Shown here piece after piece: positions 19,437 through 23,857 of a stretch of DNA of 64,000 nt. The DNA is from Candidatus Desulforudis audaxviator MP104C (lineage in GTDB: Bacteria > Bacillota > Desulfotomaculia > Desulfotomaculales > Desulforudaceae): positions 1,054,001 through 1,118,000 of the forward strand of contig NC_010424.1 of assembly GCF_000018425.1 (NCBI RefSeq). Reading direction: 5' to 3'. A program made the translations under genes and the position numbers. The first letter of the stretch is position 1. The number at the start of each line of letters is the position of its first letter. Below the pieces are notes generated by a model, which worked only from the letters and a program-made list of their open reading frames with translations, was not told the origin of the DNA and searched no databases.

Positions 19437-19660
19437 GCGGCAGAAGCTTTGAAGAGGCCCTGCGGCGCCTGGAGGAGATCGTGCAGCTTCTGGAAAAGGG
19501 CGAAATGCCACTGGAGGAGGCCTTGGACCTTTTTGCCGAGGGAGTGGAACTGGCCGGCCACTGTCACGGGATGCTGGACGCGGCCGAACAGCGTTTGGAG
19601 GTACTGGCGCGTAACGGGACCGGCCGTAACCGGGCGGGTGATGGAGGCGGTGAGTTTTGA
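19433..19660 (+). CDS. xseB: Exodeoxyribonuclease VII small subunit
   Basis: 75-residue XseB, two-helix protein that binds the arm of XseA. The conserved pattern FEEALRRLEEIVQLLEKGEMPLEEALDLF is unmistakable. GTG 19433 overlaps the end of fchA in a GTGA junction. Its own stop overlaps the TTG start of ispA, so expression of xseB and ispA is coupled. Confidence 0.96.
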   Translation: MSGRSFEEALRRLEEIVQLLEKGEMPLEEALDLFAEGVELAGHCHGMLDAAEQRLEVLARNGTGRNRAGDGGGEF

Positions 19661-20550
19661 GCATGTTTTTGCAGGCACTGGCTGCAAAGGCGGAAACAAT
19701 CGACGCGGCGCTGGACCGATACCTGCGGCAGGCTTCGGAGAATCCCCCGGTTATTCACGAAGCGATGCGGTACAGTGTGTTTGCCGGCGGCAAGCGGCTC
19801 CGTCCGGCCCTGACCCTCGCCGCCGCGCAAGCCGTGGGAGCCCCGGAAAGACTGGTGCTGCCGGCGGCCTGTGCGATTGAGCTGATCCACACGTACTCCC
19901 TGATTCACGATGACCTGCCCGCCATGGACAACGATGACTTGAGGCGGGGCAAACCGACCAACCACCGGGTGTTCGGCGAGGCGGTGGCGCTGTTGGCCGG
20001 AAGCGCCCTTTTCGCCCTGGCGTTTGAGGTCCTCGCCGGGTGCCGCCGGGACGGAGGGCTTGCGGCCGAACGAATCCTGGCGGTCGTAGAGGAGGTCGCC
20101 GCGGCCTGTGGCACAGCGGGTTTGATCGGGGGCCAAGCGCTCGACGTGGTATCCGTCTCCCGAACCGTCAGTGAGGCGGAACTGGAAGCCGTACATCGGG
20201 CCAAAACCGGAGCGCTCTTCCGGGCGGCGGTGCGGGCCGGAGCGGTCTTGGGGGGCGCCAGTCCGGTCCAGCTGGAGCGGCTGACCGTATTTGCCGAACA
20301 TTTCGGGCTGGCCTTCCAGATCACTGACGACATTCTGGACGTCACCGGATACGCTGAGCAGACCGGCAAGGCGGTGGGCAGCGATGCCCGGAACAGAAAA
20401 CACACTTACGTTTCGGTGTGCGGCCTAGAAGCGGCTCGGCGGCGCGGTGCCGAAAGTTCTGCGGCCGCCCTGGCAGCCCTTGAAGAGTTTGGGCCTGAGG
20501 CGGATTTCCTGCGCCAGGCGGCGGAATTCATCGTGTCACGAGAATTTTAA
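19657..20550 (+). CDS. ispA: Geranylgeranyl/farnesyl diphosphate synthase (IspA type)
   Basis: Trans-prenyl diphosphate synthase, joining IPP to allylic diphosphates to make FPP for quinone and cell-wall lipid carriers. 297 residues. First Asp-rich motif DDLPAMDNDD (from about D85), second motif DDILD, and the GGKRLRPAL and GGQALDV segments are intact. TTG 19657 overlaps the xseB stop; ATG 19663 is an alternative start. The gene stands immediately upstream of OLE RNA, the conserved position of that RNA in many Firmicutes. Confidence 0.95.
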   Translation: MSMFLQALAAKAETIDAALDRYLRQASENPPVIHEAMRYSVFAGGKRLRPALTLAAAQAVGAPERLVLPAACAIELIHTYSLIHDDLPAMDNDDLRRGKPTNHRVFGEAVALLAGSALFALAFEVLAGCRRDGGLAAERILAVVEEVAAACGTAGLIGGQALDVVSVSRTVSEAELEAVHRAKTGALFRAAVRAGAVLGGASPVQLERLTVFAEHFGLAFQITDDILDVTGYAEQTGKAVGSDARNRKHTYVSVCGLEAARRRGAESSAAALAALEEFGPEADFLRQAAEFIVSREF

Positions 20551-20613: not shown

Positions 20614-20642
20614 TTGCCCCGAACCCGGCCGTATGCTATGAT
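20614..20642 (+). promoter_or_regulatory. Probable promoter of OLE RNA
   Basis: TTGCCC (20614-20619), a 17-base spacer and TATGAT (20637-20642) with TG one base before the -10 (extended -10). Start of transcription would fall near 20650, about 30 bases before the closing stem of the OLE RNA. This suggests the RNA is not made only by read-through from ispA. A hairpin CCGAGG...CCTCGG lies just upstream, at about 20565-20583. Confidence 0.6.
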
Positions 20643-20678
20643 TACGTGCAGGACAAAAGCTAAAACAGAGCCAAGTTT

Positions 20679-21260
20679 GGGTAAGTGACGCAGTATCCTA
20701 GTCAGAAACCCCTTTTGCGAAGGCGGGCCTAAAAATCCGCTAAGGGCACATCGATGAAGTTCCTGGTGCCGGCTGCCGACGCCCAGTCGGGGGCTGGTGC
20801 TGGGGGTTAAGGGGATGGGGCGAGCTGCAACGGCATGCAGGCGTTGACCCCGTCCCCGCGGAGACCCAAGTGCGTGGGGAGCGCGGCGAACTACGGCTTG
20901 GGGTGTAAACCTGTACGTGGGGAGAAGCTGCGTGCAGTGTAGCCTGCCTTGAGTGGTCATGGTGGATGCCGCCGAATGCGCCCCTGGACGCGGGGGCCCC
21001 TGCCGATGGGGTGCAGGTTGAAACCATGACTGCAAAAGAGGCTAGGGAAGGGGTCTTCTGTCGGGGAAAGCTCCTAGGCTGTCCGAAAGGGGCGGGCTGG
21101 GGATTGCAGTGTAGTCTGAGTGGTAATCCAGTACCGGTGCCGGCAACGGTCCGGGGACGGCCTTAAAGGGAAACCGCCCGTTCGGCGACGGCGGGTGGCG
21201 GTTCGGGAAAACCTGCTGGACCTAAGCTACAATATTTATCCAACCCGCTGTCACTTACCC
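20679..21260 (+). ncRNA. ole: OLE RNA (ornate large extremophilic RNA)
   Basis: About 580 bases without a plausible gene, bounded by a perfect 11-base complementary pair: GGGTAAGTGAC at 20679-20689 and GTCACTTACCC at 21250-21260. The size, the very rich internal pairing, and the position between ispA and a four-helix membrane protein followed by dxs are those of OLE RNA, first described by the Breaker group in anaerobic and extremophilic Firmicutes. The known RNA forms a membrane-associated ribonucleoprotein with OapA, encoded here by the next gene, and is linked to tolerance of cold, alcohol and magnesium stress. I recognise it by layout and pairing; a covariance-model search would confirm the exact ends. 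Confidence 0.88.
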
Positions 21261-21349
21261 CTGAGTTATTCAGGTCAGACCTTAAAAGGCGGAAGTTGTA
21301 CCGCTGCCGGTCGTCGAGGCCTGACTGCGATTTAGAGGTGTTCACGCCA

Positions 21350-21937
21350 TTGGCGAACGACAACGGCCCTCCATCCTACCGGCACCTGGTGATGGTGGGT
21401 CTGGGAACCCTGGTGGCGACCATTGTCATCAGCCTGTTTGCCGAGACAACGGTCAGGCAGGTGGCGAACCTTGGGATCGCCCTCTTTCTACTGGTGATAA
21501 TCATCGCCATCAACGTGGTTTTTGATATTATCGGAACCGCCGCGGCGGCGTCCCGGGAGGCGCCGTTTCACGCCAAGGCGGCCAAGAAGGTATTCGGGGC
21601 GCAGCACAGTGTGTACCTGGTGCGAAACCGGGATAAGGTGGCCAACTTCACCCAGGACGTAATCGGCGACATCGCCGGCATCGTGGCCGGGGCATTGGGC
21701 ATCGGCCTGATCACACGGGTGGTCCTGACACATCCCGACATAGACGCCATCGTTTTCAGCGTTTTGATCACGGCGGTGATCGCCTCCCTGATTGTCACCG
21801 GCAAGGCTTACGGCAAAAGGATCGCCGTCCGGAGAGCCACTCAAATCATTTTTATAGTCGGCAAAATTCTGGCTGGATTCGAAAGACTGGTTTTTTGGCG
21901 CGCCGAGCCCGGCCGTCGCCAGCGCAAGTCTCGTTAA
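21350..21937 (+). CDS. oapA: OLE-associated protein A (OapA), membrane RNA-binding protein
   Basis: 195-residue integral membrane protein with four hydrophobic segments (about 11-31, 40-65, 105-127 and 138-160). An Asp-x-x-x-Asp pair (DVIGD) begins the third helix, and a basic loop (HAKAAKKVFG) follows the second. This pattern and the location right after OLE RNA identify OapA, which anchors the RNA to the membrane. TTG 21350 is chosen because AGAGGTG (21334-21340) lies 9 bases upstream; GTG 21338 is in frame but overlaps that site. dxs follows after 15 bases. Confidence 0.88.
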   Translation: MANDNGPPSYRHLVMVGLGTLVATIVISLFAETTVRQVANLGIALFLLVIIIAINVVFDIIGTAAAASREAPFHAKAAKKVFGAQHSVYLVRNRDKVANFTQDVIGDIAGIVAGALGIGLITRVVLTHPDIDAIVFSVLITAVIASLIVTGKAYGKRIAVRRATQIIFIVGKILAGFERLVFWRAEPGRRQRKSR

Positions 21938-21952
21938 GGGAATGATCGCTTC

Positions 21953-23857
21953 TTGGGATTGCTGGACGGAATAAGCCACTTGACCGATCTCCGGGCGCTG
22001 ACCCCGGATCAGCTTGACGAACTCGCCGCCGAGCTCCGCGATCTGATTGTGTCCACCGTCTCCCGCACCGGCGGGCATCTGGCCCCCAACCTGGGAGTCG
22101 TCGAACTGACGCTGGCCCTGCACTACGTATTCCGGGCTCCCGACGACCGGATCGTCTGGGACGTAGGCCACCAGTGCTATGTGCACAAAATTCTCACCGG
22201 CCGCAAGTCGCAGTTTCACACCCTGCGCCAGTTCGAAGGCTTGAGCGGGTTTCCGAACCGGAACGAAAGCGAGTACGACTGCTTCGGCACCGGGCACAGC
22301 AGCACCTCGATTTCCGCCGCGCTGGGCATGGCTCTTGCCCGGGATTTAAGCGGGGAGGACCGAAACGTGGTGGCAGTGATCGGGGACGGTGCACTTTCGG
22401 GCGGGATGGCCTTCGAAGCGCTGAACCAGGCCGGTCACCTGGGATGCCGGCTCATTGTCGTTTTAAACGACAACGAAATGTCCATTGCCAGAAACGTGGG
22501 CGCCATGGCCCGTTACCTCTCCCGGCTGCGCACCGACCCAATGTACTCTCGGAGCAAGGACGAAGTGGAGTCGCTCTTGCGGCGGATCCCCGCCATCGGT
22601 CCACGGGTGCTCGGCTGGATTGAACGTATCAAGGACAGTCTGAAATACCTGGTGGTCGCCGGGATGCTGTTTGAGGAGTTGGGTTTCACTTACCTGGGCC
22701 CGATCGACGGACACAATATCCCCGCGATGCTGAACGTGTTCCGGCAGGCCCAGGCGGTTGAAGGTCCGGTGCTGGTGCACGTCCTGACCAAAAAGGGCAA
22801 AGGATATGCCCCGGCCGAGAAAAACCCGGATAAGTTTCACGGGGTCGGCCCGTTCGACCCGGCAACGGGGAATACGCCTACCGACGCCAGGGTTTCGTTC
22901 ACCGAAGTATTCGGCCGGACACTGGTTCAACTGGCCGAAGCGGACAGCCGCATCCTGGCGATCACCGCTGCAATGACGTCGGGTACCGGCCTGGGGCCGT
23001 TTTCACGCCGGTTCCCGCAGCGTTTCTTTGACGTGGGGATCGCGGAGCAGCACGCGGTCACTCTGGCCGCCGGGCTGGCGGTTGAAGGCTACCGTCCGGT
23101 GGTGGCCATATATTCCACCTTCTTGCAGCGGGCCTACGATCAGGTGCTGCACGACGTGTGTCTCCAGAAGCTTCCCGTGGTGTTCGCCCTGGACCGGGGT
23201 GGGATCGTCGGCGAAGACGGTGTCACCCACCAGGGAGTGTTCGATTTCTCCTTCCTGCGCCCGGTTCCCAACCTGGTGATGATGGCCCCGAAAGACGAAA
23301 ACGAATTCCAGCACATGCTGAAAACGGCCGTGGAACACGAGGGTCCGATCGCCGTGCGCTACCCGCGGGGCACGGGAACGGGCTGCGCGCTGGACCAGGA
23401 TCTCGTGGCGTTGCCCATCGGACGGGCGGAAGTGCTCCGCGAAGGGGACGATATTACGTTGATCGCTATCGGAAACATGGTGCCGACGGCGGTCAAAGCC
23501 GCCGAAATTCTGGCTGAACGGGGAATAGAAGCGTCCGTGGTCAACGCCCGGTTCGTGAAGCCGCTGGACGAGAAGTGCATCTGCCATTACGCCCGCCGCA
23601 CCGGGCGCCTGATCACATTGGAGGAAAACGTGATCGCCGGCGGATTCGGCAGTGCCGTTCAGGAACTCCTTGTCGCTAAGGGCCTTACCGACGTCCGGGT
23701 ACAGTTGATCGGCCTTCCCGATGTGTTTATCGAGCACGGTGCCCCGCACCTGCTGCGGGCCAAGTACGGGTTGACCGTGGACCGCGTGGTCCGCACGGCG
23801 GAAAGTGAGAAAAGAAAGCGGGCCAGGCTGAAGCTGGCGCCGAGGTTGCTGAGGTAA
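21953..23857 (+). CDS. dxs: 1-deoxy-D-xylulose-5-phosphate synthase
   Basis: Thiamine-diphosphate enzyme that condenses pyruvate and glyceraldehyde 3-phosphate in the first step of the MEP isoprenoid pathway. 634 residues. It shows [15 protein letters not shown], the ThDP motif [18 protein letters not shown]...NDNEMSI, the transketolase-type [13 protein letters not shown] with its catalytic Glu, and a C-terminal transketolase domain. TTG 21953 is the likely start. Together with upstream ispA it makes an isoprenoid group around OLE RNA. Confidence 0.97.

Follow-up and report, generated by a model that had tools for sequence, protein, structure and literature searches.

OLE RNAs are among the largest and least understood structured RNAs of bacteria. 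The question raised by the candidate OLE locus of Candidatus Desulforudis audaxviator MP104C, a bacterium from a deep mine, is whether it holds a complete RNA together with its partner proteins, and whether this RNA is transcribed from a promoter of its own although it lies in a compact run of genes. Here, we address this question in the window (the whole stretch of DNA that was analysed, 64,000 nucleotides), in the closed D. audaxviator genome (2,349,476 bp), and in OLE loci throughout its class and phylum.

A full-length OLE RNA and its partner genes

The identity of the RNA is given by a covariance-model search which, like a search for oapB and oapC elsewhere in the genome, had been proposed as a check by a sequence-only reading of this DNA. 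The match to Rfam family RF01071 (OLE), at 20669-21270 on the forward strand, covers the full model (positions 1-616) with 487.6 bits (E 5e-140), against a gathering cut-off of 50 bits, which bears out the earlier view that the RNA is complete. The same reading had described a 582-base RNA closed by a perfect 11-base stem, and this is exact to the base. The OLE RNA extends on the forward strand from 20679 to 21260 (582 nt), and the 5' strand of its terminal stem, GGGTAAGTGAC (20679-20689), pairs at all 11 positions with the 3' strand, GTCACTTACCC (21250-21260). This closing stem is absent from the consensus structure line of OLE in Rfam. It is kept in relatives by compensating base changes: all 11 pairs are present in 43 of 88 loci, and 91% of closing-stem cells pair. 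Exchanging partners at random among the loci lowers this figure to 77.6%, and the highest value in 1000 shuffles was 80.3%. The RNA also folds better than its shuffles (z -4.1 for the stretch 20681-21260). On the basis of sequence and literature, the k-turn strand GGGCACAUCGAUGAAG (20744-20759, forward) is the predicted OapC site. Counting from a published primer (PMC12054373), 20751-20752 correspond to U84 and C85 of the Halalkalibacterium (Bacillus) halodurans OLE, and both bases are kept; the k-turn mutants U84C, U84A and C85A have been studied (PMC9723947). The whole-genome search gave a single copy, so a second OLE is rejected, as is a plasmid-borne origin of the locus, since there were no matches among 72,556 plasmids.

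The gene order at the locus is xseB-ispA-OLE-oapA-dxs-tlyA. This synteny is found in nearly all OLE loci of the class, and OapA adjoins OLE in 67 of 67 loci of the phylum. Upstream lies ispA, encoding a polyprenyl synthetase (19657-20550, forward; PF00348, E 1.9e-59), and downstream dxs (21953-23857, forward; PF13292, E 3.1e-126), so that the OLE-OapA locus sits where it had been placed, in the order ispA-promoter-OLE-oapA-dxs. The oapA gene (21350-21937, forward) most likely starts at the TTG at 21350, behind AGAGGTG (21334-21340), as suggested by a family alignment with 18 relatives; the same alignment disfavours the upstream TTG at 21296 called by the ORF finder. The predicted protein combines the two features by which OapA can be recognized, a distant similarity to CNNM/DUF21 (22.5 bits against PF01595, under the cut-off of 28.4) and a DxxxD motif, D104-V-I-G-D108, in which both D residues are invariant in the 19 aligned sequences. 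CNNM domains, unlike OapA, are without this motif (PMC11332333). One genome of the class (97% complete) has OLE and gave no match in the OapA search. It was set aside as a case of OLE without OapA, because its best dxs match begins at a contig end and oapA may sit in an assembly gap.

The two other partner genes are both present elsewhere in the D. audaxviator genome. We found oapB between map and infA (C1:268749-269081), with an E of 6.1e-10 to the solved OLE-associated protein B (7k9b), and oapC/ybxF before rpsL, with an E of 1.1e-13 to 3v7e. OapC has wider uses. Two near-identical transposase genes (L043:1102-2517 and L044:11853-13238) lie in the ribosomal-protein region, one of them directly upstream of oapC/ybxF, a place from which it is absent in a congener (G047). 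OLE and MpfA have been reported to be anticorrelated (PMC11332333), but in this class the anticorrelation is not strict. A CNNM match over the cut-off occurs in 36 of 113 genomes, 32 of which also have OLE, which means that about one third of the OLE genomes (32 of 101) encode an MpfA-type protein and that strict exclusion is rejected here. D. audaxviator itself encodes such a protein, with CNNM, CBS and CorC_HlyC domains (L045:3308-4603; C1:2111307-2112602), and G047, which is without OLE, has none.

A conserved extended -10 promoter upstream of OLE

The predicted OLE promoter (20614-20642, forward) can be written as TTGCCC-N17-TGCTATGAT, with a -35 box TTGCCC at 20614-20619, a 17-nt spacer, and an extended -10 element TGC-TATGAT at 20634-20642. 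It thus has the TGn, the -10 of at least 5/6, and the spacer of 16-18 from a -35 that characterize sigma-A extended -10 promoters. Its -35 is weak (4/6 consensus), as is usual for promoters of this type. Two promoter-like sites were found in a 6-kb region where 0.8 were expected, which makes the OLE site alone only mildly unusual; the promoter is convincing because it is conserved across relatives, not because of its single-site score. A consensus scan of the 130 nt that precede the closing stem was run on 88 OLE genes of the class, with a threshold of 11/14. This was reached by 94.3% of them, while TGn with a -10 of at least 5/6 is present in 96.6%. In the controls at the same score, the rate was 1.4% for dinucleotide shuffles, 1.1% for random upstream stretches of the locus, 1.1% before oapA, 0 of 78 before dxs and 0 of 77 before ispA. 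The threshold had been set on the class loci and was applied once, unchanged, to 65 new OLE loci of the phylum, of which 83.1% passed against 2.8% in the control; OLE loci are related by descent and do not count as independent trials, and the phylum set comes from other families, dozens of them. The extended -10 is also found at 14 named OLE loci outside the class, several of which have weaker -35 boxes. The shuffles and the controls before oapA, dxs and ispA reject a chance origin, and the promoter first noticed from the sequence of this one locus has held up across the class and the phylum.

This conservation points to a separate transcription start for OLE, expected near 20649-20650. No intrinsic-terminator-like site was found by scanning between ispA and the promoter, and read-through from ispA may therefore contribute. 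Similarly, since no terminator-like or strong promoter-like site was found between OLE, oapA and dxs at the D. audaxviator locus, transcription would run through oapA and probably into dxs. In H. halodurans, a polycistronic transcript has been reported (PMC12265935), and OLE is on record as having a promoter of its own as well as belonging to an operon (PMC9723947). Known for one species, a dedicated OLE promoter thus appears, as judged by sequence conservation, to be general.

Deleted and free-standing OLE genes

In the two closest sequenced relatives, G046 (73% complete) and G047 (97% complete), both of the genus Desulforudis, neither OLE nor OapA was detected. A renewed OLE search of both with laxer filters was again empty, with a model that matched in 101 genomes, which rejects the idea that OLE had been overlooked by a strict filter. 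Their dxs protein shares 92% identity with that of D. audaxviator, and their DNA aligns with the window to about 20645 and resumes from 21935, OLE and oapA being replaced by a short scar. The junctions lie inside contigs of two separate assemblies (G046, contig C19, about 21500-21580; G047, contig C1, about 250400-250465). This state is a loss, because OLE and oapA are at their usual position in four genomes that belong to the same family but are less closely related. The promoter is intact in both congeners, with its TG-(-10) 102-110 nt before the dxs start, compared with 1319 in D. audaxviator. A second deletion common to both genomes has removed the last part of the map-oapB spacer together with codons 1-72 of oapB, its first two thirds (G047, contig C4, near 130616; G046, contig C41, near 5012). 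The flanking infA and map are 100% and 94-95% identical, respectively, and the oapB remnant in G046 is in addition frame-broken. The oapC gene is intact in G047 (87%), and the G046 contig ends before it. OLE, OapA and OapB have therefore been lost while OapC stayed, the last being seen in G047 only. The link between the loss of oapB and that of OLE is suggestive; four other OLE-less genomes keep OapB, so that the former need not follow from the latter. Two near relatives without the RNA, OapA and OapB amount to a natural knock-out of the complex. With the whole ribonucleoprotein present in one species of the genus and not in these two, OLE function can be approached by comparing genomes and physiology.

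A short dispersed repeat (GGTCAGACCTYAAAA... / GGTCAGACCTYAAAAACTTCAAA...), which is perhaps a miniature mobile element, ends at 21273-21287 (forward) in the OLE-oapA spacer and recurs at six other places in the genome. Its pattern GGTCWGAMCTYAAAA has seven exact occurrences in D. audaxviator, including that at 21273, while the backward pattern, even with one mismatch allowed, gave one match per strand. A related copy lies at the deletion junction of the congeners, whose scar has inverted ends GGTCTGACCTCAAAA / GGTCAGAACTCAAAA, and a small mobile repeat may thus have taken part in the deletion of ole-oapA.

Another departure concerns nine OLE genes from two families that do not adjoin oapA and form one clade (support 1.0). 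Since OapA is beside OLE in all 67 loci sampled from the phylum, this free-standing arrangement is clade-specific. These genes keep the extended -10 promoter, and within about 10-15 nt after each lies a hairpin with a tail rich in T, usually of the form GCAACCC...GGGTTGC (the scan gave six of these hairpins, and three were read by eye off the sequence). Their neighbours vary between genomes, and in six of the genomes oapA directly follows ispA and precedes dxs, without an intervening OLE. In one genome, that of Peptococcaceae bacterium BRH_c4b, the free-standing form coexists with a canonical OLE. Free-standing RNAs are shorter, spanning 559-596 nt over the model, and in the copy that was examined the interior of one long stem is missing (within model positions 311-356). 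Downstream of one of them lies a TwoAYGGAY RNA motif (RF01731, 45.8 bits; L073:3755-3912, reverse strand). These genes offer a ready-made trans-complementation test.

A ribonucleoprotein gene set compared with known systems

Taken together, the locus and the rest of the genome very probably constitute a functional, full-length OLE ribonucleoprotein gene set, with OLE transcribed from its own extended -10 promoter. An alternative is that the promoter is that of the oapA-dxs operon, with OLE as a long structured leader acting in cis. This would fit the near absence of promoter-like sites before oapA or dxs, and the retention of the promoter in the congeners without OLE and oapA, some 0.1 kb ahead of the start of dxs, as if dxs still needed it. 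We nevertheless consider a leader unlikely, because the nine OLE genes far from oapA-dxs have their own promoter, and in most of them a terminator-like hairpin right after the RNA, and because OLE binds proteins in trans in H. halodurans (PMC9723947, PMC12054373); cis and trans roles can, moreover, coexist.

That OLE might be made solely by read-through of the ispA operon, the promoter-like sequence being due to chance, is far less probable still. The polycistronic transcription reported for H. halodurans (PMC12265935) and the lack of a terminator-like site between ispA and OLE are compatible with it, but not the conservation of the promoter, which is found at 94% and 83% of the OLE loci and in 1-3% of the controls, nor its persistence in free-standing copies, nor the own promoter reported for this bacterium (PMC9723947). 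It is equally hard to see the locus as a decaying relic, even if OLE is lost from two congeners and the D. audaxviator spacer holds an extra repeat end, when the model match is full-length, the closing stem perfect, and oapA, oapB and oapC all intact.

For the preferred reading, an intact gene set with its own promoter, we envisage initiation near 20650 by RNA polymerase carrying the housekeeping sigma factor, and a transcript that covers OLE, oapA and probably dxs, to which read-through from ispA may add. The OLE RNA would then probably be excised at the closing stem, a processed RNA of about 630 nt having been reported in H. halodurans. On assembly into the ribonucleoprotein it would be joined, going by the literature, by OapA in the membrane, by OapC bound at the k-turn and by OapB bound to the 3' domain, and the OapB and OapA contact sites in D. 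audaxviator are predicted from sequence similarity. The particle would serve stress adaptation, as the literature suggests, and for its activity the leading guess is a role in handling metal ions with the MpfA-like OapA. Whether OLE is, more broadly, an autonomous unit seems to us evenly balanced. Its dedicated promoter would travel along with it, feed dxs and outlive a deleted ole-oapA. In one lineage it would have become free-standing (promoter-OLE-terminator) and work away from oapA, one genome having both forms, and in Desulforudis the RNA, OapA and OapB would have been lost together while OapC stayed. If this is true, Desulforudis provides a natural comparison with and without the complex.

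The promoter shares with extended -10 sigma-A promoters the TGn before a TATAAT-like hexamer and a spacer of 16-18, and shows no difference from them. Likewise, the RNA is full-length (602 nt over the Rfam model) and shows no difference from the full-length OLE class of Fernando and Breaker 2024 (PMC11332333). The free-standing copy that was examined bears some resemblance to the published shortened variants. With the OLE-OapA locus of H. halodurans, D. audaxviator has in common the RNA family, the adjoining oapA and an own promoter within the operon (PMC9723947), and both genomes contain the OapB and OapC genes. The difference is that H. halodurans is without mpfA (PMC11332333), whereas D. 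audaxviator has an MpfA-type protein in addition to its OLE ribonucleoprotein genes.
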